In this document: positions 1 to 51,402 of the stretch, one piece after another
Position numbering within the stretch: the first letter of the stretch is position 1
How the letters are laid out: the number at the start of each line of letters is the position of its first letter
NCBI GenBank assembly: GCA_015065785.1
Contig: SVPR01000014.1
Coordinates: 1-56,969, forward strand
Origin: Oscillospiraceae bacterium
GTDB taxonomy: Bacteria; Bacillota; Clostridia; Oscillospirales; Acutalibacteraceae
Length of the DNA: 56,969 nt
Reading direction: 5' to 3'
Made by a program: the position numbers and the translations under genes
The notes under the pieces: model-generated
Database searches by the model: none
What the model was told of the DNA's origin: nothing
What the model saw: the letters and a program-made list of their open reading frames with translations, nothing else

Positions 1-96
1 ACATGATTTGATTTGCCATATAATGCCGTTAGGCAAATCATGTATCGAAAGATACAAATCATGAAATTGTTTCAATTTATGCCAGGGCAAATCATT
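1..96 (+). repeat. Chain-of-hairpins repeat, copy A (cut by window start)
   Basis: Short hairpins are joined by 7-nt linkers. In order: GCCGTTAGGC, linker AAATCAT, GTATCGAAAGATAC (5-bp stem, GAAA loop), AAATCAT, GAAATTGTTTC, AATTTAT, GCCAGGGC, AAATCAT. The sequence is identical to 195-290 of copy B, so the missing first part probably lies before the window. It has no coding potential. Its function is unknown; it could be a non-autonomous mobile element or a structured RNA/DNA element. Confidence 0.85.
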
Positions 97-106
97 AGTA
101 TTGTTA

Positions 107-147
107 TTATATAACAATCTCTTTATGCCTCGTCACATGGCACCCGA
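107..147 (-). pseudogene. Duplicated 3' fragment of the fumarase alpha gene
   Basis: Positions 107-147 repeat 301-341, the last codons and stop of the fumarase alpha gene, with one difference (c127 versus t321). The fragment belongs to a larger duplication: 1-147 equals 195-341 with a period of 194 bp. The remnant lies between repeat copies A and B. It is too short to encode anything useful and records either a duplication or an assembly collapse/expansion at the repeat. Confidence 0.8.
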
Positions 148-148
148 A

Positions 149-290
149 ATGATTTGGCTTACGCCATGAATTGCATAAATGCATGAATTGTTTCACATGA
201 TTTGATTTGCCATATAATGCCGTTAGGCAAATCATGTATCGAAAGATACAAATCATGAAATTGTTTCAATTTATGCCAGGGCAAATCATT
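149..290 (+). repeat. Chain-of-hairpins repeat, copy B (full length)
   Basis: Order of units: ATGATTT, GGCTTACGCC, ATGAATT, GCATAAATGC, ATGAATT, GTTTCAC, ATGATTTGATTT, GCC-N7-GCCGTTAGGC, AAATCAT, GTATCGAAAGATAC, AAATCAT, GAAATTGTTTC, AATTTAT, GCCAGGGC, AAATCAT. It ends about 10 bp before the fumarase stop codon. It is collinear, unit for unit, with the inverted copy at 6527-6670, where stems are kept while loops and some stem pairs change. Confidence 0.88.
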
Positions 291-300
291 AGTATTGTTA

Positions 301-1143
301 TTATATAACAATCTCTTTATGTCTCGTCACATGGCACCCGACATTCACCGCAACAGGAAGTCCTGCAATGTGAGTCGGTGCAGTTTCAATGTTTACCTTT
401 AAAGCGGTAATATCACCACCGAAGCCTTGTGCGCCAATGTTTAATTTATTTATTTCTTTAAGCATTTTTTCTTCTAAATTTTTGTAGTATTCGTTTTCGT
501 TAGAAACAGAAATATCTCTTGTGAGTGCTTTTTTAGCGAGGATTGCCGAGCCTTCAAAATCACTGCCAATTCCTACACCTAAAACAACAGGAGGGCAGGG
601 GTTAGCGTCAGCAGTTTTAACTACATCTACAACGAAATTTATAATATCTTCTTCAGTTGCAGATGGAGTGAACATTTTGATTTTACTCATATTTTCACTG
701 CCGAAGCCTTTTGGTGCGGCAGTTAATTTTACTTTGTCACCATCAACAATAGAGTAGTGAATAAGTGCAGGGGTGTTGTCATTTGTATTACCACGAAGAA
801 TAGGGTCTTTTACAATTGAACAACGCATTTTGCCATCAACATAAGCTTTTCTTACACCATTATTTATAGCGTCATTCAAACTGCCGTTTATAAAATGCAC
901 ATCTTGTCCTATTTCAATAAAAAGCACAGCCATTCCTGTATCCTGACAAATAGGTATTTCATTTTCTCTTGCAACATCTAAATTTTTGCACATATCGCAA
1001 AAGATGCTTTTTGCAGTTTCGTTGCTTTCTGTTTCTTTAGATTGTCTTATTAAATTTTCTAAAGAGCCCGGTAACTCTGCATTTGCAGAAATAAAAAGCT
1101 CTTCTACTGCTTTCTCTATTACTGAAACGTCAATTTCACGCAT
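301..1143 (-). CDS. Fumarate hydratase / L-tartrate dehydratase, alpha subunit (class I, Fe-S)
   Basis: Alpha subunit of the two-subunit [4Fe-4S] hydro-lyase that interconverts malate and fumarate, or acts on tartrate, in the cytoplasm. Family signatures visible are ICQDTGMAVLF with a likely cluster cysteine, PCPPVVLGVGIG, GAQGFGGDITAL and the C-terminal NVGCHVTRHKE. At 280 residues it matches the usual alpha subunit. ATG at 1143 is chosen because GGAGG lies 9 nt upstream; the TTG at 1152 abuts that GGAGG. The beta subunit is not in the window; if present it should lie before position 1, beyond the repeats. A terminator hairpin sits only a few bases upstream of the Shine-Dalgarno. Which of the two substrates is used cannot be read from the sequence. 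Confidence 0.92.
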   Translation of the reverse strand: MREIDVSVIEKAVEELFISANAELPGSLENLIRQSKETESNETAKSIFCDMCKNLDVARENEIPICQDTGMAVLFIEIGQDVHFINGSLNDAINNGVRKAYVDGKMRCSIVKDPILRGNTNDNTPALIHYSIVDGDKVKLTAAPKGFGSENMSKIKMFTPSATEEDIINFVVDVVKTADANPCPPVVLGVGIGSDFEGSAILAKKALTRDISVSNENEYYKNLEEKMLKEINKLNIGAQGFGGDITALKVNIETAPTHIAGLPVAVNVGCHVTRHKEIVI

Positions 1144-1166
1144 AATTTTCAACCTCCGTAAATTCT

Positions 1167-1208
1167 AAAAGGGTCTGCAAAAAACTTGCGTTTTTTACAG
1201 ACCCTTTT
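1167..1208 (-). terminator. Intrinsic terminator after yabR, directly before the fumarase ribosome site
   Basis: An 18-nt stem (AAAAGGGTCTG-N-AAAAAA paired with its complement, one unpaired base) closes a short TTGCG loop. On the minus strand it follows yabR by about 20 nt and ends only about 7 nt before the fumarase GGAGG. The core AAAAAAC-TTGC-GTTTTTT recurs in the terminator at 48818-48856. Confidence 0.8.
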
Positions 1209-1226
1209 CATCGTGTGATAGAAAAA

Positions 1227-1694
1227 TCAGAATCCGCGTTGATTTCCTCCGCCACGGCGAGATGTAGAGTTACCTCTTTTTGCCGCGGTGTTTTTCTTTA
1301 AATCACTCATTCTTTCGTCACTCTTTGTTTTAAAACGAGCTAACATATCTTCAAAAGACATATTTTCAGGTTCATTTTTCGGAGCACCGTTCCATACAGG
1401 TGGTTGATTTCTTTTGGGTTTATCGCTGTAAGCCTTTTTAGGTGCAGGGGCTTCTTCCGGTGGAAGAGCTTTTTTAATCGAAAGTGCAATTTTGCCCTTT
1501 TCGTTAATATCAATTACCTTAACCTTAACTTCCTGATTTTCAGATAATTTTTCGTGAATATCTTTAATATAAGTGTTTGAAACTTCAGAAATATGTACCA
1601 TACCTGTTGATTTGTCAGGAAGCTCAACAAAAGCTCCGAAGTTTGTAATGCCGGTAACTTTACCGTCTAAGATTTCGCCGATTTCTACTGCCAT
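1227..1694 (-). CDS. yabR: S1-domain RNA-binding protein, YabR type
   Basis: An S1/OB-fold RNA-binding domain fills residues 1-75 (GEILDGKVTGITNFGAFVEL, then MVHISEVS and ALSIKKAL). It is followed by a Pro/Lys-rich linker and a basic Arg/Gly-rich tail ending in SRRGGGNQRGF. Related proteins bind RNA or ribosomes (general stress protein 13 / YabR group). The start ATG has a GAGGT site upstream. It lies downstream of divIC in the same order as Bacillus subtilis yabP-yabQ-divIC-yabR, which supports the name. The RG tail suggests additional nucleic-acid binding (inference). Confidence 0.9.
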   Translation of the reverse strand: MAVEIGEILDGKVTGITNFGAFVELPDKSTGMVHISEVSNTYIKDIHEKLSENQEVKVKVIDINEKGKIALSIKKALPPEEAPAPKKAYSDKPKRNQPPVWNGAPKNEPENMSFEDMLARFKTKSDERMSDLKKNTAAKRGNSTSRRGGGNQRGF

Positions 1695-1736
1695 GAAAGA
1701 CTTACCTCGTTTTTAAAAATAAATTAAATATAAATA

Positions 1737-2051
1737 TTATGTACCCGGAGTGATGTCAATATAAACTCTTTCGTCTGTTTTGACATATCCGTTTTCTCTG
1801 GCATATTTTTCAGCAATTGCGGCTTCATCATTTTCCTCGATGGTTTTTTCAATGTCTTTGTTTTGCTGAACCACATCTTCTTTGTGATTCTGAAGGTCAG
1901 CCAAATGCTCTTTCTTCTCGTTAATTTCTTGATTTGCAGAGATGAAAGAAACCGCAAAATAAATTGCCAAAGCTGCTGCTACAGTGAACACCATAGTCAT
2001 AAGAATACCTTGCTTTTTAGTTCTTCTGCGAGTTTCCTTTTCGTTGTTCAT
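1737..2051 (-). CDS. divIC: Cell-division protein DivIC (FtsB-like)
   Basis: A small bitopic division protein of 104 residues: a basic N-terminus (ETRRRTKKQ), one membrane helix (about residues 16-38), an extracytoplasmic coiled coil rich in Glu/Gln/Lys (about 40-75) and the family ending ARENGYVKTDERVY. DivIC works with FtsL and DivIB in septal peptidoglycan synthesis. ATG at 2051 is preferred because AGGTGG lies 8 nt upstream; the ATG at 2078 lacks a good site. The gene overlaps the end of yabQ by 35 bp, so translation is probably coupled. Confidence 0.9.
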   Translation of the reverse strand: MNNEKETRRRTKKQGILMTMVFTVAAALAIYFAVSFISANQEINEKKEHLADLQNHKEDVVQQNKDIEKTIEENDEAAIAEKYARENGYVKTDERVYIDITPGT

Positions 2052-2592
2052 TGTTACAGCCACCTTTCTTTTTGACATTCCGTTGCTTTTTTAATATACC
2101 TAATAAATTATACACAAACAACCTGAGTTTTGGCAAGTGTTTTTTTCGATTTTTCTCGGATTTTTTCTTAACTTTTTTAAAAATAAGCAAAATTTTATCT
2201 TTTATTTTCAAAATTACCTTAAAAATCAGTAAAAACGGTGCAGAAATTACCTTGAAGATGAATTTAAAAACAGTGTGAATACCCTTTACAAATGCATCTG
2301 TAAAGCTTTTGGCGGCTAACCCGAAAGAGAGGTAATAAAAAATCCAGCCTAAGATTTCTCCGAAAATCATATAAGAGCGAAACTCGCCCTTGTTGGTGGC
2401 TAAAAAGAAAATAAAAGTAGCTAAACCGAAAATAATAAAATATAGAATATCAAAAATAAAAATAACGGCTTTTGCTTTAGAAAATGTTAAGCGAATTGTT
2501 CTTAAAATATCGTAAACAATGCCTAAAACAAAGCCTGCACCCAGTGAAAGTAAAAAGAGCTTTAATTGTTCACTTTGCTCAAAGGAATACAT
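2017..2592 (-). CDS. yabQ: Spore cortex biosynthesis protein YabQ
   Basis: A membrane protein of 191 residues with about four hydrophobic segments in the first 120 residues (LKLFLLSLGAGFVLGIVYD opens the first) and a very Lys-rich C-terminal half. YabQ is a sporulation membrane protein needed for cortex formation in B. subtilis. Its ATG overlaps the yabP stop (TGATG), which indicates translational coupling. The basic C-terminal tail, with about half Lys/Arg over its last 40 residues, is expected to be cytoplasmic. Confidence 0.88.
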   Translation of the reverse strand: MYSFEQSEQLKLFLLSLGAGFVLGIVYDILRTIRLTFSKAKAVIFIFDILYFIIFGLATFIFFLATNKGEFRSYMIFGEILGWIFYYLSFGLAAKSFTDAFVKGIHTVFKFIFKVISAPFLLIFKVILKIKDKILLIFKKVKKKSEKNRKKHLPKLRLFVYNLLGILKKQRNVKKKGGCNNEQRKGNSQKN

Positions 2593-2876
2593 CAGCGGAA
2601 TACCTTTCCCCAGAAGCTTGTGTTTTTAGGTGCTATATCTGCATAAGACAGTGCGGCAATGTTGCCCTCAACCTGAAGCTCACCAATTTCAAGTGAAAGT
2701 CTTGTGATGTGAAGCTTTTCACCGCGAATGGTTAACTCGCCTAAATCAGTTGAAGCGATAATTGTCTGCTCGTCAAAGCTGTCAACATCGTTTACGCCTG
2801 ACACAGAAAGTGTGCGTCTGTCCTCTAAAATGCAATTGTGTGGTAAAAATCCAGTCTTTTTTTCTTCTGTAATCAT
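2592..2876 (-). CDS. yabP: Sporulation protein YabP
   Basis: A 94-residue protein of the YabP/YqfC family. It shows the family pattern of an N-terminal basic stretch, RRTLSVSGVNDVDSFDEQ, and a beta-rich body ending in ALSYADI. In B. subtilis yabP is in the mother-cell sporulation programme beside yabQ. The site AAAGGGGAC lies 8 nt before the ATG. A near-perfect inverted repeat (2888-2914) sits just upstream and partly covers this ribosome site. It is the first gene of the yabP-yabQ-divIC-yabR run. Confidence 0.88.
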   Translation of the reverse strand: MITEEKKTGFLPHNCILEDRRTLSVSGVNDVDSFDEQTIIASTDLGELTIRGEKLHITRLSLEIGELQVEGNIAALSYADIAPKNTSFWGKVFR

Positions 2877-2887
2877 AAAAAAGTCCC

Positions 2888-2914
2888 CTTTCGATAATAT
2901 ATATTACCGAAAAG
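2888..2914. promoter_or_regulatory. 27-bp imperfect palindrome upstream of yabP
   Basis: CTTTCGATAATA pairs with TATTACCGAAAAG around a 3-nt centre, with one mismatch. It lies between the HAD gene stop (2930) and the yabP start and touches the yabP ribosome-binding site. It could be a protein operator or an mRNA hairpin limiting translation; no convincing promoter was found within it. Confidence 0.45.
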
Positions 2915-2929
2915 AGATTTTAAGAACTA

Positions 2930-3496
2930 TTATTTTATTTTTTTGATTTTATTGCCCTTGACTAAATAAACATTTTTGCTTATATCCATAAGGGGTTTAT
3001 CGTTAAAAGAATCGGTGTAAAGGTCATCAATTTGCGCATCGGGATATTTTTCAAAAAACGCCTTTACCTTATTTTCTCTGAGGCAAAGTCTTTCAATTTT
3101 AGCTTCTTCCTCATTTATTAAAGTACCAATGTAATTTTTTATGTTTAGCCTTTTGCAGATTTCCTCTAAAGATATTTCAGGCGAGCATGAAAGAATTAAG
3201 TCATCATCTTTTCTTACAGCTTCATAAAAAGGCTTGATATTCTTCTGATACTTGTCCCAGAATTCAGGGATGCAACCGTGAAACTGCGGATTTTCTACAT
3301 AGTAATCAACAGCTCGTTGGCCATATTTGTTAATGGCCTCTTCAATAGATAAAGCACCGAATTTATATTTTGTGAATGCGGTAACTACCGCAGGGAGAAA
3401 GCGGATAAGCTTTTTGTCTTTCTTTAAAAAGAATTTAAAAAAATCAAATGCACTTTCGCCGTCATAAATAGTGTTGTCAAAATCGTAAACATTCAT
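2930..3496 (-). CDS. HAD-superfamily phosphatase (HAD-IB / SerB-like)
   Basis: A 188-residue HAD hydrolase. Motif I is YDFDNTIYDG (nucleophile and acid aspartates at the N-terminus), motif II is ILSCSPE (Ser), and motif III/IV is the late Lys plus YTDSFNDKPLMD. The all-helical cap region (residues about 15-80) is typical of the phosphoserine-phosphatase-like IB class. The substrate is unknown. Its start overlaps the end of the MFS gene by 4 bp (ATGA), so the two are one operon; the phosphatase may act on whatever the transporter brings in (inference). Confidence 0.85.
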   Translation of the reverse strand: MNVYDFDNTIYDGESAFDFFKFFLKKDKKLIRFLPAVVTAFTKYKFGALSIEEAINKYGQRAVDYYVENPQFHGCIPEFWDKYQKNIKPFYEAVRKDDDLILSCSPEISLEEICKRLNIKNYIGTLINEEEAKIERLCLRENKVKAFFEKYPDAQIDDLYTDSFNDKPLMDISKNVYLVKGNKIKKIK

Positions 3497-4755
3497 ATTG
3501 TTTTAAACCTGTTCCATTTTTTAATGTTAAGTGAAGTGAATAATAAAGCAATTAAATCAATAACAATCCACACTACAACAGTACCGTTCCAGCCGATGTT
3601 ATCAGATATAATTCCAAAACCGTAAGTAGCGGCAGCACAGCCTATGTAAGCGGTAGCATTCATAACACCTGTAACTGTTGCAGTTTTGCCGTATTTTGCA
3701 AATTGCATTGGTACTAAGGTTATAATCATATAGTTAAAGGTGTGCATTGCAGTAGTGCCGAGAGCGAGTAAAATAACGCTTACAACAATTGGTAGGTTTT
3801 TCATAAATATAAGGAATGCAAAAGGAATTAAAACAAACGCTAAAATAAAAGCACCTGTTTTTAATTCGTCCTTTTTGAATACCTTGTTATATAAAGGTGT
3901 GATAATGTAGTTACCCGATAAATTTACTATTGGCAGAATTATTGAAATAAATACAGAAAAAGCAACAGGAGTGCTGTAGGTTTCTGTAATCATTGTTGGC
4001 ACCCAGGTGGTAATACCCTCTTTAATAGCACCGTGAATAGCGTCTGCAGGTAAAACTAAAAGTAAGCCTGCTGACAAAAATAATGGTAAAAATTTATTTG
4101 TGTTAATGTTAGTGTTGCCGTCTTTTTTAGTGTTATTTACGGCATTTGCAATTTCAACCTCTGTAATATGCTTTTTTGAAAGGAAATATGTAACAGAAAA
4201 GAAAATAAAAGCGAAAATAAGCACAACAGAAGAAGTGTAAAAAACATATTTCCAATTGAAAAAGTTGATTGAAACAGAAGCTAAAATATAAGCTAAAACT
4301 GTACCAATCGGAAGCGTCGCAGAAATATTAAGACACGCTTTAGAACGCATATCGTAATTTATAATATTAGCTAAAATTTTAAGGATTGCCGCCCATAAAA
4401 GTGAAAGGGCAAACCCGTTAAAGCCCCAGATAACAGCCATTGAAACATTGGTAGTGCAAAAGGTCATTAAAATATTTGTACCTGCAGACAAAAACAATCC
4501 CAGCATTATCATTTTAAATGGTGAAATTTTATCACCTAAAAATCCGTTTATAATCTGGAAAAATCCATAAACTATAAAAAAGGCAGAGCCTATAATACCT
4601 GCCTGAGATTTTGTGAAAAGCCCTTCGTTTAAAATATCAGGTAAAGCGGCTGAATAGTTAATTCTACCCACATAAGATGCGGCATAAGCAATAAAGCAAG
4701 CCACAAAAACGAGAGCAGAATATTTTTTGCTTTCTAAATACTGTTGCGTTTTCAA
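3493..4755 (-). CDS. MFS transporter, organophosphate-antiporter-like
   Basis: About 12 hydrophobic segments across 420 residues. The N-terminal region VGRINYSAALPDIL and the loop GFLGDKISPFK resemble the OPA (sugar-phosphate/phosphate) branch of the major facilitator superfamily; the substrate is not known. A longer frame opens at 4818, but that stretch contains a good promoter (TTGACA, 16 bp, TAGAAT with TGG before it). Translation therefore probably starts at the TTG at 4755, which has AAGGAAG 7 nt upstream. It is cotranscribed with the HAD phosphatase and faces the serine hydrolase gene across a perfect inverted repeat. Confidence 0.85.
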   Translation of the reverse strand: MKTQQYLESKKYSALVFVACFIAYAASYVGRINYSAALPDILNEGLFTKSQAGIIGSAFFIVYGFFQIINGFLGDKISPFKMIMLGLFLSAGTNILMTFCTTNVSMAVIWGFNGFALSLLWAAILKILANIINYDMRSKACLNISATLPIGTVLAYILASVSINFFNWKYVFYTSSVVLIFAFIFFSVTYFLSKKHITEVEIANAVNNTKKDGNTNINTNKFLPLFLSAGLLLVLPADAIHGAIKEGITTWVPTMITETYSTPVAFSVFISIILPIVNLSGNYIITPLYNKVFKKDELKTGAFILAFVLIPFAFLIFMKNLPIVVSVILLALGTTAMHTFNYMIITLVPMQFAKYGKTATVTGVMNATAYIGCAAATYGFGIISDNIGWNGTVVVWIVIDLIALLFTSLNIKKWNRFKTI

Positions 4756-4786
4756 ATAATCGCTTCCTTGAATAATAATATATGTT

Positions 4787-4814
4787 ATTCTACCATATTT
4801 AAAAGTGGTGTCAA
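4787..4814 (-). promoter_or_regulatory. Sigma-A-type promoter of the MFS-HAD operon
   Basis: TTGACA at 4814-4809, 16-bp spacer, TAGAAT at 4792-4787, with TGG directly before the -10 (extended -10). The -35 abuts the 16-bp inverted repeat at 4816-4855. Confidence 0.7.
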
Positions 4815-4815
4815 G

Positions 4816-4855
4816 CATATATAAAAATAAAAGTTGAGATTTATTTTTATATATG
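4816..4855. promoter_or_regulatory. Perfect 16-bp inverted repeat in a divergent promoter region
   Basis: CATATATAAAAATAAA (4816-4831) and its exact complement (4840-4855) flank an 8-bp centre. The repeat touches the -35 of the MFS promoter and covers the -35 and most of the spacer of the serine hydrolase promoter. Its position fits a shared operator controlling both genes, although the sequence is AT-only apart from its ends. Confidence 0.6.
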
Positions 4856-4862
4856 ATAAAAT
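4834..4862 (+). promoter_or_regulatory. Sigma-A-type promoter of the serine hydrolase gene
   Basis: TTGAGA at 4834-4839, 17-bp spacer, TAAAAT at 4857-4862; the gene starts 36 nt downstream. It overlaps the inverted repeat at 4816-4855. Confidence 0.7.
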
Positions 4863-4897
4863 AAAGAAAACAATCTTTTGAAAAGGAGTGTTAGACC

Positions 4898-6523
4898 TTG
4901 GCAGCAAAAGAAAAATTTAACCTCGAAAGAGCAAAAAGTCCGGAAGAGGTTGGCGTTGACTCAAAAGAAGTTGTAGAATTCCTCAGAGATATGAAAGAGA
5001 ACAAGTTGGAGTTCCATAGCTTTATGGTTATAAAGGACGGTAAAGTAGCTTGTGAATTTTATCGTTCGCCATTTAATAAGGAAACACCACATTCAGCCTA
5101 TTCAATAAGTAAAACTGTTACTGCAATTGCAGTAGGCTTTGCAATAAAAGAAGGACTTTTTTCATTAGATACAAGAGTTGTCGATGTTTTCCCTGAATAT
5201 ATTCCTGAAAAAGCAGACGGCAGAATTTTTAAAGTTACTGTTCGTAATCTTCTTACAATGACCGCAGGAATTCAACCGAGCTTTTTGAGCGATAAAGGGA
5301 AAATCGACTGGATAGAGGATTATTTTAATTCTTCATTTTATGGCGAGCCGGGCACATTCCGTTATGTAAATGAAAATACATTTATGTTAAGTGCTATTAT
5401 TTGTAAGACAGCAAATATGACACTTCGTGAATATTTAAAGCCAAGACTTTTTGAGCCCCTTAACATAGAAGTACCATTCTGGGAAACTAATCAGGCCGGC
5501 ATTGAAGCAGGCGGCTGGGGGTTATATCTTAAATTAGAGGATCTCGCAAAAATTATGTATTGCCTTTCTAATAAGGGTAAAATCGAAAAGCAACAAATTA
5601 TACCTGAAGAGTGGGTAGCTGAAATGACCGAGGCTCATGCCGACACTTCAATATGTAAAAATATTGATACTGACAAGGGCTACGGCTATTGTGTATGGCG
5701 TAACGGTGGCGATATTAACGGTTACAGAGCAAATGGTATGTTTTCACAATTTGGTATTGTTTTCCCGAAAGAAGATGCAATAATCGTTTCTTTTGGTGCT
5801 ATTGCAAGTGAGCAGGAGGCTAGAGATTGCATCTGGCGTCACTTCCCGAAAGCATTTATTGAGCCTGACAAAAAGGCTAAAAAGCCTGTTTTTGAAGATT
5901 TTTATAACATTGCAGATGAATTTAAAATTGATAATCCGACTGCATCAATCCGTTCTTTACAAGAAGCAAAGCTTAATAATAAAACGATTGAATTAAAAAA
6001 GAAAATTCTTTTGAATTTAATAGGCTTCCCTGTCAGCGTAATTCCGTTTACAGTTACATTCTTAAACGGAAAAAAAGCAGGTAATATTGATAATATAAAC
6101 TTCACTTTTAAGGAAAATGAATGCTTAATGAGCTGGAGTGAGGGGAATGAAAAAAATACAGTTACTTGCGGTATGGATGGGCATTTAAGATATGGTGATA
6201 TTACTTTAGCAGGAGTAAAATATAAGGTTTGTTGTTACGCTGTGTGGGATGATAATGACATCTTAAAGGTTAACATAAGACCTATTGAAACTGCATCAAA
6301 AAGAAAGCTTAAATTTACATTTATCGGTACTGAAAAGGTAGTAATGAAGCCACTTTCTACACCAAAGGTAAAAGATATGGCGGAGTCTTTAGCGGGTGCA
6401 GCAGCTGAAATAATTGATAATGATTTAGTTGTCAAGGTAATGCAAAAAGCTACCAAATATGTGCCATGGGTGTTAGAGCCAAGGCATAAGGGTAAGTTGG
6501 TTGGTAGGAAAGATATATATTAA
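4898..6523 (+). CDS. Serine hydrolase, beta-lactamase class C / EstB family
   Basis: The beta-lactamase-type domain occupies about residues 10-310. The SxxK catalytic pair is S69-I-S-K72 (AYSISKTVTAIAVG), followed by the RNLLTMTAGIQP helix and the second motif Y-V-N in FRYVNENTF. Residues about 350-541 form an extra, mostly beta C-terminal domain of unknown role. There is no signal peptide, so it should be cytosolic. Members act as esterases, peptidases or beta-lactam hydrolases; which applies cannot be told here. The TTG start has AAGGAG 9 nt upstream. It is transcribed away from the MFS-HAD operon and is probably co-regulated with it. Confidence 0.85.
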   Translation: MAAKEKFNLERAKSPEEVGVDSKEVVEFLRDMKENKLEFHSFMVIKDGKVACEFYRSPFNKETPHSAYSISKTVTAIAVGFAIKEGLFSLDTRVVDVFPEYIPEKADGRIFKVTVRNLLTMTAGIQPSFLSDKGKIDWIEDYFNSSFYGEPGTFRYVNENTFMLSAIICKTANMTLREYLKPRLFEPLNIEVPFWETNQAGIEAGGWGLYLKLEDLAKIMYCLSNKGKIEKQQIIPEEWVAEMTEAHADTSICKNIDTDKGYGYCVWRNGGDINGYRANGMFSQFGIVFPKEDAIIVSFGAIASEQEARDCIWRHFPKAFIEPDKKAKKPVFEDFYNIADEFKIDNPTASIRSLQEAKLNNKTIELKKKILLNLIGFPVSVIPFTVTFLNGKKAGNIDNINFTFKENECLMSWSEGNEKNTVTCGMDGHLRYGDITLAGVKYKVCCYAVWDDNDILKVNIRPIETASKRKLKFTFIGTEKVVMKPLSTPKVKDMAESLAGAAAEIIDNDLVVKVMQKATKYVPWVLEPRHKGKLVGRKDIY

Positions 6524-6526
6524 GCA

Positions 6527-6670
6527 ATGATTTGCCTTCGGCATGATTTGAAATATATTTCATAAATTGCATCTTACGATGCATGATTTGCCTTACGGCA
6601 TTTTCGTGGCAAATCAAATCATGTGTAACAATTCATGCATTTATGCAATTCATGGCGTAAGCCAATTCGT
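6527..6670 (-). repeat. Chain-of-hairpins repeat, copy C (inverted)
   Basis: Read on the minus strand it matches copy B unit by unit: GGCTTACGCC, ATGAATT, GCATAAATGC, ATGAATT, GTTACAC, ATGATTTGATTT, GCC-N8-GCCGTAAGGC, AAATCAT, GCATCGTAAGATGC, AATTTAT, GAAATATATTTC, AAATCAT, GCCGAAGGC, AAATCAT. Relative to copy B the fifth hairpin changes GTATC/GATAC to GCATC/GATGC, a compensatory pair change that keeps the stem. It starts 3 bp after the serine hydrolase stop. Confidence 0.88.
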
Positions 6671-6683
6671 TAATAAAAAACGA

Positions 6684-6720
6684 AGGACTTATTAAGTTTT
6701 TAGAAAACTTAATAAGTCCT
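6684..6720. terminator. Bidirectional terminator between the serine hydrolase and dinD
   Basis: A 17-bp perfect stem (AGGACTTATTAAGTTTT and its complement) closes a 3-nt TAG loop. On the minus strand it is followed by a T-rich run and serves the long dinD-terminated operon. Confidence 0.85.
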
Positions 6721-6739
6721 AAGTGTTTTATCTTGGTTT

Positions 6740-34832: not shown

Positions 34833-34858
34833 GTAAACACCAACCTTTAAAGTATTAG

Positions 34859-35059
34859 TTGAAAATTGAAAATTGAAAATTGAAAATTAAGGAACGCTTC
34901 GCGTTGATTGTAATAGTTTTTTCAAATTGATAGGTTTGTTGTTTCACTTGAAGTTTCTTTAGAAATCAAATGGTAAATGAAACAATAAATTTAATAATAA
35001 AATATTATAATGCCGACCGCAGGTCCCGGAATTTTCAACTTTCAATTTTCAATTTTCAA
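34859..35059. repeat. Heptamer-ended intergenic element H1
   Basis: Starts with four copies of TTGAAAA and ends with TTTTCAA, CTTTCAA, TTTTCAA, TTTTCAA, so the ends are inverted. Inside each end lies a GC-rich imperfect palindrome (GGAACGCTTCGCGTT on the left; GGGACCTGCGGTCGGC, read inward, on the right) and then ATTGTAATAG or ATTATAATA. The middle has a stem TTGTTTCA/TGAAACAA (34939-34946, 34978-34985) enclosing TTGAAGTTT. It shares these parts with the element at 51076-51340. Confidence 0.8.
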
Positions 35060-35063
35060 TTCA

Positions 35064-35093
35064 AAGAATAGGCGAATTGCTTCGCCTATTCTT
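35064..35093 (-). terminator. Hairpin between the BMP lipoprotein and ABC ATPase genes
   Basis: AAGAATAGGCGAA and its perfect complement close a 4-nt loop, 14 nt after the lipoprotein stop, without a T run. It probably sets the higher ratio of binding protein to transporter by stopping transcription or blocking 3' decay. Confidence 0.6.
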
Positions 35094-36431: not shown

Positions 36432-36452
36432 GAGAACAAAACGTATATTGAA

Positions 36453-36535
36453 TGCAGAGTGCAGAGTGCAGAATGCAGAATTTCGGAAACGCTGTGCGTT
36501 TGATTGTAATAATGCAGAATACAAAATGCAGGAAT
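36453..36535. repeat. Heptamer element H2, end distal to xpt
   Basis: TGCAGAG, TGCAGAG, TGCAGAA, TGCAGAA (36453-36480), then the tip GGAAACGCTGTGCGTTT and ATTGTAATAA, then TGCAGAA and TGCAGGA again. The tip matches the left tip of H1. It ends at the stop of the four-helix-bundle gene; the inverted partner is at 36913-36940. Confidence 0.78.
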
Positions 36536-36895
36536 TTAATGTTTTTTCAAATTTTCATTTGTGGTTTTACAAATTGACATTAATATCGAGATGATTTCAT
36601 CTATATCTTTATATAAACTTTTAAATTGATTTTCGTCTAAATAATTTGTTTCACATAACAATCGTAACCAGTACTCGGTTTCATTAGCCTCTTTTAAAGC
36701 AATATTCATTTTTGAAACAAAATCCGGTTTTGATTGTCCGCGTTGTGCTTCTGATATATTTGCACCTATGCTTGTTCCACTACGAAGTAATTGCTTCGAT
36801 AAAACATACTCTTGTTTTTCAGTGCTCAAATATTTATATAGATTTACAATTCTTATAGCAAACCTAAAACTTTTATCTTTTATAGGATTATCCAT
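36536..36895 (-). CDS. Four-helix-bundle protein (S23 / 23S rRNA intervening-sequence family)
   Basis: A 119-residue protein of the TIGR02436-type family: FRFAIRIVNLYKYL, LLRSGTSIGANISEAQRG (the family hallmark around SIGANI-EA), NIALKEANETEYWLRLL and a last helix. Homologues are encoded inside 23S rRNA intervening sequences and resemble the Avd accessory protein of diversity-generating retroelements, but no biochemical role is fixed. AAGGAAG lies 8 nt before the ATG. It is 14 bp after xpt and is flanked by inverted 7-bp repeats (36453-36480 and 36913-36940), which suggests it arrived as a unit. Confidence 0.9.
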   Translation of the reverse strand: MDNPIKDKSFRFAIRIVNLYKYLSTEKQEYVLSKQLLRSGTSIGANISEAQRGQSKPDFVSKMNIALKEANETEYWLRLLCETNYLDENQFKSLYKDIDEIISILMSICKTTNENLKKH

Positions 36896-36909
36896 TTATA
36901 ATTCTTCCT

Positions 36910-37512
36910 TTATTCTGCATTCTGCACTCTGCATTCTGCATTCCTGAAGCTAACCCCGTTAACTTCACTCATACTCTCAACTATCGCCAGTGACTGAAGC
37001 TCAATCCCCATTTCGCGAAGCTTTTTGCCTCCGTCCTGAAAGCCCTTTTCAATGGCGATTCCAATTCCAACTAAATTTGCACCTGATTGCTTTAAAATAT
37101 CAAGTACAGAAAAAGCGGCGTTGCCACCTGCAAGAAAATCGTCAATGAAGAGAATATTGTCAGTGGAGGAGAGATATTTTTTAGAAACAATCATTTCATA
37201 GTCTTTACCGTGTGTAAAAGAGTGGCTCTGAGCAGAGTAAACATCGCTACCAATATTTTTATGAGAAGATTTTTTGGCAAAAACAACAGGAACATTGAAG
37301 TATTTAGCCGCCATAACAGCAATAGCAATACCTGAGGATTCAACGGTTAAAATTTTATTTATACACTTGTCCTTAAAAAGCCTGTAAAATTCCTTGCCCA
37401 TTTCATCTAAAAGGGCAACATCAATTTGGTGGTTAAGGAACATATCAACCTTTAAAATATCAGTACCGATAACTTGTCCCTCTTGTCTGATTTTCTCTTC
37501 TAACAGTTTCAT
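36910..37512 (-). CDS. xpt: Xanthine phosphoribosyltransferase with a repeat-derived C-terminus
   Basis: Converts xanthine and PRPP to XMP in purine salvage. 200 residues: LTVESSGIAIAVMAA, FAKKSSHKNIG and the PRPP loop ILFIDDFLAGGNAA are typical. The ATG at 37512 has GAGGATGGGG upstream. The body ends near EVNGVSF; the last 11 residues RNAECRVQNAE and the stop are encoded by the TGCAGAA/TGCAGAG heptamers, so an insertion has replaced the natural end. Position beside a nucleoside importer suggests a shared purine role. No xpt-type guanine riboswitch was seen upstream. Confidence 0.93.
   Translation of the reverse strand: MKLLEEKIRQEGQVIGTDILKVDMFLNHQIDVALLDEMGKEFYRLFKDKCINKILTVESSGIAIAVMAAKYFNVPVVFAKKSSHKNIGSDVYSAQSHSFTHGKDYEMIVSKKYLSSTDNILFIDDFLAGGNAAFSVLDILKQSGANLVGIGIAIEKGFQDGGKKLREMGIELQSLAIVESMSEVNGVSFRNAECRVQNAE
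36913..36940. repeat. Heptamer element H2, end inside the xpt 3' end
   Basis: TTCTGCA, TTCTGCA, CTCTGCA, TTCTGCA; the complement of the repeats at 36453-36480. It lies within the last codons of xpt and directly before the ribosome site of the four-helix-bundle gene. Confidence 0.8.
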
Positions 37513-37577: not shown

Positions 37578-37609
37578 GAGGGAAATTAGTTGGTCGGTGA
37601 GTCGGTGGT

Positions 37610-37748
37610 CAGGAAGCAGGAAGCAGGAAACAGGAAACAGGAAGCAGGAAACAGGAAACAGGAAGCAGGAAACAGGAAGCAGGAAACAGGAAGCAGGAAA
37701 CAGAGAAGAGCACTGACAAAATTCTAAATTCAGCACTCAGCACTTTGC
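37610..37748. repeat. Heptamer array H3 between xpt and the arabinofuranosidase gene
   Basis: Thirteen copies of CAGGAAR (R = A or G, both mixed along the array) at 37610-37700 plus a degenerate CAGAGAA, then a second, unrelated 7-bp run ATTCTAA, ATTCAGC, ACTCAGC, ACTTTGC (37721-37748). Both runs keep a 7-bp period. The array sits between two divergent promoters. The open frame through it (repeating SCFL and FPV) is an artefact of the repeat. Confidence 0.9.
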
Positions 37749-51075: not shown

Positions 51076-51340
51076 TGCAGAATGCAGAATTTTATAATTG
51101 AAAATTGAAAATGGAAAATTGAAAATTGTGGGACCTGCGGTCGGCAATTGTAATAGTTATCCATAGAAACAAGAAATTCTATCATTTGAAGTTTGTGTAA
51201 ACTAAAAATGATAGAATTTTTATATTTAAATCTTAATATTTGTAATTAGTATAAATGAAAAAGTCAGTTTACCATTATAACTAATTATTATAATTACGGC
51301 GTAGCCCCGAAATTTTCAATTTTCAATTTTCAACTTTCAA
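51076..51340. repeat. Heptamer-ended intergenic element H4 between nrdG and nrdD
   Basis: Left: TGCAGAA twice, then TTGAAAA, TTGAAAA, TGGAAAA, TTGAAAA; tip GGGACCTGCGGTCGGCA (51130-51146) and ATTGTAATAG. Right: ACGGCGTAGCCCCGAAA then TTTTCAA three times and CTTTCAA. Centre: 13-bp arms (51175-51187, 51206-51218) enclosing part of TTGAAGTTT. The 17-nt tip is identical to the right tip of H1 in the opposite orientation. It accounts for most of the 594-bp nrdG-nrdD gap. Confidence 0.82.
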
Positions 51341-51402
51341 TTTAAAAATAGTATTATTATATATACGATATTGTGAATGTAATAGACAAAATAGAGAATC
51401 TG

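Follow-up and report, generated by a model that had tools for sequence, protein, structure and literature searches.

The 56,969-nucleotide (nt) stretch of DNA analysed here, called the window below, comprises positions 1-56,969 of contig SVPR01000014.1 from an Oscillospiraceae bacterium (assembly GCA_015065785.1; genome label G000). Near its start lie two inverted copies, B and C, of a repeat made of short hairpins joined by 7-nt linkers. The question raised by this locus is what such a repeat is and what might read it. An earlier note, made from the sequence, had proposed selection on pairing and either a protein binding a row of hairpins or a folded RNA. Our analysis suggests that the repeat and the proteins of the S23 family (23S-rRNA-intervening-sequence or four-helix-bundle family, PF05635) form a previously unrecognised repeat-and-protein system. 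B and C are probably solo, non-autonomous members of a group of S23-linked interspersed elements built on a 7-nt unit, which S23 proteins would bind and which would be mobile. A protein reading a row of hairpin units is thus plausible, and S23 is the candidate family found for it.

Two inverted half-arrays with conserved pairing

Copies B and C are collinear chains of short hairpins with 88% identity, and the coordinates, loops and linkers given for them in the earlier note were all recovered (Table 1). Each linker that it named is exactly 7 nt long, and the spacing stays at 7 nt throughout. The linkers of the left half are ATGATTT or ATGAATT, and those of the right half are their reverse complements or near relatives, so that the element consists of two inverted half-arrays around a short centre. 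A grammar parser also recovered copy C and part of the right half of copy B (219-267). The contig begins inside a third copy, A, which the earlier note had missed. Together with B it makes up a tandem duplication of 194 bp (1-150 / 195-344), which includes 44 bp of the end of the neighbouring fumarate hydratase gene. Further copies in the host genome lie on three other contigs, several of them near contig ends and some in tandem.

The paired stem change between the two copies, from GTATC-GAAA-GATAC in B to GCATC-GTAA-GATGC in C, is real. Covariation was measured on 13 full-length copies, six from the host and seven from four related genomes. Standard pairs occupied 96.6% of the 263 cells of the chain structure, and 14 cells of the chain stems were changed on both sides; neither value was reached in any of 500 shuffles. 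When the partner was slid by 1-3 columns, pairing fell to 15.5-40.7%. Weaker measures gave five pairs with a change on both sides (17/500 shuffles as high) and six further pair types (302/500). Pairing is therefore kept while the sequence varies, as had been claimed, with the caveat that quasi-palindrome correction could also yield paired changes, though this would leave unexplained both the loop rule and the linkers described below. An alternative 'ladder' of long hairpins, in which linker pairs with linker, was rejected, its covariation being no higher than that of shuffles.

Hairpin modules between fixed words

The earlier note had held that its structural reading would fail if further copies showed broken stems or variable linkers. 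Of the 251 distinct modules that lie between exact linkers, 199 form perfect hairpins and 52 do not, compared with 200 perfect hairpins among 1910 half-swapped controls; the 251 still contain simple-tandem-repeat matches (cyanobacteria, Burkholderia and others, among the matches listed) that were otherwise set aside by eye. A wider linker set gave 426 distinct modules, 331 with a perfect stem, 34 with a single inner mismatch and 61 that fit neither description. The stems thus stood in most modules and failed in a minority.

The loops favour cGNAg and cGNNAg, about half of them lying outside this rule. On the AATTCAT strand, 45 of 108 triloops are GNA and three are TNC, and 40 of 79 tetraloops are GNNA (24 GNRA, 16 GNYA) and one is TNNC. 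A closing C is present in 75 of 90 G..A loops. According to passages of PMC4686876, DNA mini-hairpins are extraordinarily stable when a GNA or GNNA loop is combined with two or more G-C pairs. A search independent of the linkers, run on 119 loci that had been fetched by linker pattern, returned chains of at least three hairpins 36 times with G..A loops, which are mirrored as T..C on the other strand, and twice with all other loop classes together. A similar search over the full set of loci gathered brought out other linker families, namely ATATCGA/ATATCGC, ATATCAC, ACATCAC/ACTTCAC and ATTTCAC/ATTTCAT; the families seen conform to A-N-N-T-C-R-N. Two-sided AATTCAT clusters mostly contain four or five words per half. 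In genome G175 some elements are composites that join an AATTCAT half to an ATATCGA half, and because of these mixed elements the half-array looks like the unit. At L526 and L529 (G175:C3 and C12) such composites surround a terminator-like hairpin, with three occurrences. At G018:C13:44-254 (L049), near a contig end, half-arrays are tandemly amplified and their loops have diverged.

The second proposal of the earlier note, a folded RNA, would make the transcribed chain a protein sponge or a 3' stabiliser. B and C do have stable predicted folds on both strands (z -3.55 to -4.40; DNA z -3.92), the stems covary and GNRA loops are present among the tetraloops. However, the best folds in the orientation of B are long rods and not the covarying chain, and the 24 GNRA tetraloops stand beside the 45 GNA triloops and 16 GNYA tetraloops. 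The single mismatches show no clear G·T excess (17 G·T versus 12 A·C among the 34, p 0.46). Half of the hairpins of each element favour the opposite strand, and in co-directional gaps the GNA strand of half-arrays is sense in 23 cases and antisense in 35 (p 0.15). A search of the whole window against Rfam 15 gave no match at gathering score, the best sub-threshold match having an E-value of 0.34 in 1-400. We consider structured RNA improbable.

Spread and turnover of the elements

The covariance-model search that the earlier note had called for gave matches in 9 of 22 genomes of the genus, host included; since both strands of the quasi-palindromic element match, the match counts overstate the copies. 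The exact pattern of two AATTCAT linkers was found in 29 of 391 genomes of the class, against one match in one genome for the backwards control, and in one of the 29 (G212) the module is not a hairpin. Outside the class it occurred in 1 of 289 genomes, again with a module that is not a hairpin. ATATCGA chains were present in 26 of the 391 class genomes, 12 of these among the 29 AATTCAT-positive ones; the backwards control gave one match in each of three genomes, and at least two positives (G386 and G412) have chance-looking modules. In a linker-pattern scan of a named collection, most of the 80 matches listed come from Clostridia or Oscillospiraceae assemblies, many from ruminants. A subtype of about 175 bp is shared at about 78-97% identity (pairwise BLAST) across eight host families, as defined by group code.

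Of 201 arrays, 26 lie mostly within called open reading frames (ORFs) of at least 90 aa, 145 were placed in gaps between genes and 30 could not be placed. The 145 gaps are convergent in 35 cases, co-directional in 90 and divergent in 20, compared with 85, 214 and 83 of all gaps.

The elements end as A, ATGAATTG...CAATTCAT, T, with A at position -1 in 43/56 and T at +1 in 47/56. Like miniature inverted-repeat transposable elements (MITEs), they have terminal inverted repeats and interspersed copies across genomes. The site 3' of the fumarate hydratase gene holds a full element in G000 and G001, a shortened one in G018, a AACATCACT-family chain in G002 and none in G015; 14 more distant orthologous loci were not judged. 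Compared by sequence, these differences of content at one site across five species suggest turnover, though no exact empty site is among them. Chains were also found in predicted viral contigs, where they are placed between terminase, portal and neighbouring phage structural genes. Both the same-site variation and this phage placement are hints of mobility. Phage and plasmid DNA had no similarity to copy B, and the central pattern of the window itself was absent from the viral contigs searched. The F2 pattern occurred in 102 stretches of viral contigs, and among 80 loci checked a single, chance-looking one passed the hairpin filter. A hunt for empty sites in 80 phage loci related to L286 found a chain only in L419, which is the same record as L286; at the protein level these loci, and 15 others related to L312, had diverged too far for further alignment. 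Loci L212 and L213, 99% identical over a 585-bp stretch of one flank, carry an array at the same site whose loops differ as blocks and whose stems are mostly unchanged.

S23 genes beside the arrays

Of 27 genomes with chains, 25 have a PF05635 match, compared with 14 of 29 genomes that lack chains (p 0.0004, not corrected for kinship). The 27 are the 29 chain-positive class genomes less G000, as the host's own genome, and G212, and the 29 negatives were hand-picked, mostly from the same families; five of them carry the ATATCGA pattern. Eighty S23 genes with usable flanks were then hand-chosen from among the PF05635 matches in array-bearing genomes. A chain of at least three modules lies within 300 bp of 34 of them and 600-900 bp away in three. 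Among the 34, the chain is upstream only in 27, on both sides in four and downstream only in three. Arrays of either kind, hairpin chains or the tandem 7-mers described below, occupy 51 of 107 gaps that touch S23 genes and 3 of 22 other gaps of the same loci. In G295:C2, two AATTCAT half-arrays enclose an S23 gene and are ordered as in solo elements, the one clear case with this word, and it is on this ground that B and C are read as gene-less relatives.

At L594, L596, L601 and L633, inverted ATTTCAY elements with two halves precede the S23 match by about 50-65 bp. Their hosts span three families (f35, f34 and f47), which makes them a good set for tracing recent transfer. At L649 and L653, S23 ('four helix bundle') genes adjoin cas1/cas2 on cyanobacterial plasmids.

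The same comparisons bear on a second family. Repetitive extragenic palindromic (REP) elements moved by Y1 or REP-associated tyrosine transposases (RAYTs) are palindromic, interspersed, mostly intergenic and free of target duplication, as these elements are, and a single Y1 gene, with the 261-aa length of a RAYT, is present in the host genome. However, Y1_Tnp occurs in 18/27 chain-bearing and 20/29 chain-negative genomes (p 1). None of 38 Y1 loci has a linker cluster, their only parser match has inconsistent linkers, and an array occupies 1 of 62 gaps. Such an origin is disfavoured and seems to us very improbable. Membership in REP or bacterial interspersed mosaic elements (BIMEs) was also rejected by inspection of alignments and modules, which have no GT(A/G)G head and in which the stems vary and the linkers are conserved.

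Linker words on the S23 tree

A tree was built from 80 of 81 S23 proteins, leaving out one of 23 aa, and the linker family of the upstream array was placed on it, with 'none' counted as a state. The labels required 18 changes on this tree of few alignment columns, compared with 43.7 when shuffled (0/200 as low). Of the 13 ATTTCAY rows, 12 lie in a single clade of 13 (95*), and all eight ATATCGA rows fall in a clade of nine (97*); the hosts in either case belong to several families. An S23 protein with at least 74% identity to an ATATCGA-clade query, a cut picked after the list had been seen, was found in 11 of 66 genomes, all of them ATATCGA-positive, and in 0 of 40 negatives. Beside S23 genes L568 (G000) and L618 (G002), AAATCAT is commoner than AATTCAT (4 versus 3 and 3 versus 1). 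It is also the commoner word in the solo copies of that genus, and elsewhere AATTCAT prevails both beside S23 genes and in solo copies.

These results bear on a purely mutational origin, by which slippage would create the 7-mers and template switching the perfect hairpins, with no partner protein. Perfect stems, tandem duplications, amplified half-arrays and the loop blocks swapped between the close orthologues L212 and L213 are what such processes would leave, and slippage has been proposed for other heptamers in passages of PMC4679880 and PMC4692102. They leave the loop preference and the inverted halves unexplained, as well as the clustering of words on the S23 tree and the concentration of arrays beside S23 genes. 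We regard this origin as having little likelihood.

Tandem 7-mers around S23 genes of other clades

In other clades, the S23 gene often has hairpin-free tandem arrays of period 7 nearby; they lie within 300 bp of 20 of 81 genes and farther off in two. Within 300 bp, periods 5, 6, 8, 9 and 10 gave counts of 0, 0, 2, 0 and 0. Where 7-mers flank the gene on both sides (17 genes), they are inverted in 11, direct in three and undecided in three, compared with 14% of inverted matches between different genes. Among 15 plasmid or phage S23 loci, hand-chosen from 46 records, 11 have period-7 arrays within 350 bp and one has an array at least 500 bp away. The 11 are all on plasmids, of Bacteroidota, Spirochaetota, Cyanobacteriota and Chloroflexota; one cyanobacterial locus of the set has period 8.

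The window itself contains an S23 gene of this kind, flanked by inverted 7-mer arrays (Table 1). It scores 111.8 bits with PF05635, against a curated cut-off of 33.8, and its relatives in the PDB are 2rld (E 3.9e-42) and 2gsc (E 1e-4), both five-chain entries. It is not part of a 23S rRNA intervening sequence (IVS), a candidate that was rejected: the whole window has no Rfam match at cut-off, and the gene lies between other ORFs. The inverted pairs 34853/35028 and 51089/51308 are like solo elements, and the gap within the former is too small for an S23 gene. The regions 34853-35065, 36445-36560 and 51089-51347 share inner motifs beside the 7-mers, namely AACGC..GCGTT and GATTGTAATA, and GGGACCTGCGGTC with its complement, which perhaps represent a common subterminal module.

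The position of the arrays also fits autoregulation, in which they would be operators or leaders of S23 genes, solo copies being strays or decoys and nothing being mobilised by the S23 protein (S23p). An upstream chain is present in 31 of the 34 S23 genes with a chain nearby. Passages of PMC4990558 place tandem heptamers of the Coxiella IVS immediately ahead of the start codon of S23p, and Geobacter arrays are termed putative regulatory elements in passages of PMC2700814. Against this, many chains are remote from S23 genes, being found at 3' ends and in predicted viral contigs, tandem 7-mers are often inverted on both sides of the gene, and the window has gene-less inverted pairs. We judge autoregulation as the whole explanation to be rather unlikely, with a real share of the probability left to it.

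A proposed S23-linked element and its difficulties

In the S23-linked reading, the element is composed of a 7-nt word, usually repeated four or five times per half-array, with a small DNA hairpin between words and two half-arrays in inverted order. Its partner would be a protein of the S23 family, whose clades tend to own a word: AATTCAT/AAATCAT, ATATCGA, ATATCGC, ATTTCAY, ACWTCAN or hairpin-free tandem words such as AATGCAG. S23p would bind the words in a row on DNA that is probably single-stranded or extruded, and the mini-hairpins may serve as spacers that hold the words open and phased. One protomer may sit on each word, going by the five-chain relatives and the four or five words per half; a toroidal homopentamer is cited for S23p in passages of PMC4990558. 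By joining the two inverted half-arrays, S23p would allow the element to move or to be copied into gene ends. An S23 gene with its arrays would then be the autonomous form, and copies such as B and C its passengers.

Several observations weigh against this proposal. With regard to the genes, 46 of the 80 S23 genes have no chain of at least three modules within 300 bp. Among the four flanked by chains on either side, the order is solo-like in two, opposite in one and direct in one. In three genomes the chains lack a matching S23 gene: no PF05635 match is present in G210 and G046, and in G018, which is 97% complete, none of the five S23 genes belongs to an F1 clade. Among the two-sided 7-mer pairs, the direct and undecided ones make up 6 of 17. 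Neither of the two phage S23 loci, nor the single Clostridia plasmid locus, has 7-mers. Each of the seven period-7 arrays in the window has a 7-mer that also occurs beside another S23 gene of the genome, which speaks for the proposal, but reversed 7-mers score 5-6/7 as well.

With regard to the tree, 29 of 77 inner branches are open. The labels are chains of at least two modules, some of them doubtful (L625 and L631 have tandem 7-mers), and the nine AATTCAT rows do not form one clade, requiring four changes. Clustering is also partly expected from linkage, because arrays adjacent to a gene are inherited with it. A weaker test with unlinked arrays gave ATATCGA arrays away from the S23 gene, counted by hand, in 7 of 11 genomes with an ATATCGA-clade S23; of the 55 others, 15 have arrays in any position (p 0.03).

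With regard to mobility, target-site duplications, the further mark of MITEs, showed no excess over shuffled flanks, and the fumarate hydratase site offers no exact empty form. Alignment of inverted flanks of S23 loci against cross-locus pairs gave nothing (0/22), the null being inflated because the loci share repeats. To our knowledge, no nuclease activity of S23p has been described.

Relation to known systems

Tandem 7-bp words are read by Omega-type repressors in the way that is proposed here for S23p. These repressors are unrelated ribbon-helix-helix proteins and are plasmid-borne.

On the protein side the likeness is to IVS elements of bacterial 23S rRNA that carry an S23p ORF. The Coxiella IVS, for example, has in passages of PMC4990558 such an ORF, terminal inverted repeats and heptamers just upstream of the ORF, and is proposed to be selfish or mobile. 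An IVS differs in sitting inside 23S rRNA and in being excised by RNase III (same passages), whereas the present elements lie outside rRNA genes and comprise hairpin chains, solo copies and 7-mer arrays related to S23 clade. Interspersed palindromes that belong to a particular gene family are likewise found in REP/BIME elements with RAYTs; they frequently occur as inverted pairs and keep pairing despite change (passages of PMC2817692). Their protein family is another one, and the conserved linkers and varying palindromes found here are the reverse of the arrangement described for REPs in those passages.

Heptanucleotide repeats of Nostoc, Xanthomonas, Beggiatoaceae and Geobacter consist of intergenic 7-nt tandem units, sometimes upstream of start codons or inverted (passages of PMC4692102, PMC4679880 and PMC2700814). 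Those passages describe no hairpins between units, unlike the chains analysed here, and neither S23 nor four-helix is mentioned in the main text of any of the three papers. The repetitive hairpin-forming and double-hairpin elements of mitochondria are likewise short and mobile-looking, with an uncertain mechanism, and those of Allomyces lack a flanking duplication, as here; a 7-nt linker grammar and a partner protein are not described in the passages concerned (PMC2800124). Beyond the Coxiella case, a literature search in which a single query paired heptamers with the name of the protein and subscription journals were thinly covered found nothing that joins S23 genes to heptamer arrays generally.

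A wider claim is that S23 proteins are readers of a 7-nt word code with clade-specific heptamers, set in inverted half-arrays either in tandem or with DNA mini-hairpins between them, and that such units of protein and array, together with the solo elements derived from them, are a class of mobile DNA widespread in bacteria; here we find the balance even between its being right and wrong. It would join two puzzles, the over-represented intergenic 7-nt tandem repeats of bacteria and the role of the widespread S23 or 'four helix bundle' proteins. If true, the word code would account both for the abundance of heptanucleotide repeats and for the function of S23, and the elements would be a new type of mobile element with a modular recognition code. 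If each S23 clade reads its own word, both puzzles become testable by gel shift.

Features of the window

Table 1. Repeat copies, period-7 arrays and associated genes in the window.
Feature	Position	Strand	Details
Copy A	1..96	+	Truncated at contig start; 194 bp ahead of matching part of copy B
Fumarate hydratase gene 3' end, 44-bp copy	107..150	-	95% identity; carried in tandem duplication
Copy B, full element	148..290	+	
Copy B, left half			Outer A + 7-mer 149-155, hairpin 156-165, 7-mer 166-172, hairpin 173-182, 7-mer 183-189, hairpin 190-196, 7-mer 197-203
Copy B, centre	204-218		
Copy B, right half			Hairpin 219-228, 7-mer 229-235, hairpin 236-249, 7-mer 250-256, hairpin 257-267, 7-mer 268-274, hairpin 275-282, 7-mer 283-289 + T
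Copy C, full element	6526..6671	-	Inverted relative to B
AAAATTG array, left arm	34853..34894	+	7-mer shared with flank of S23 gene L565, same genome
AAAATTG array, right arm	35028..35065	-	133 bp from left arm
Tandem 7-mer array AATGCAG/AGTGCAG	36445..36485	+	One side of S23 gene
S23 / 23S_rRNA_IVP four-helix-bundle gene	36536..36895	-	PF05635, 119 aa
AATGCAG/AGTGCAG array, inverted	36906..36945	-	Other side of S23 gene
AAACAGG array	37607..37707	+	7-mer shared with flank of S23 gene L571, same genome
AAAATTG array, left arm of second inverted pair	51089..51130	+	
Right arm of second inverted pair	51308..51347	-	177 bp from left arm

Copy C is flanked by the end of a PF00144 gene and by a terminator-like inverted repeat (6673-6731). 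Directly after it lies a gene with a Bro-N domain (PF02498; 6740-7600). Bro-N domains are common in phages, and going by this gene a prophage or mobile region may adjoin copy C.

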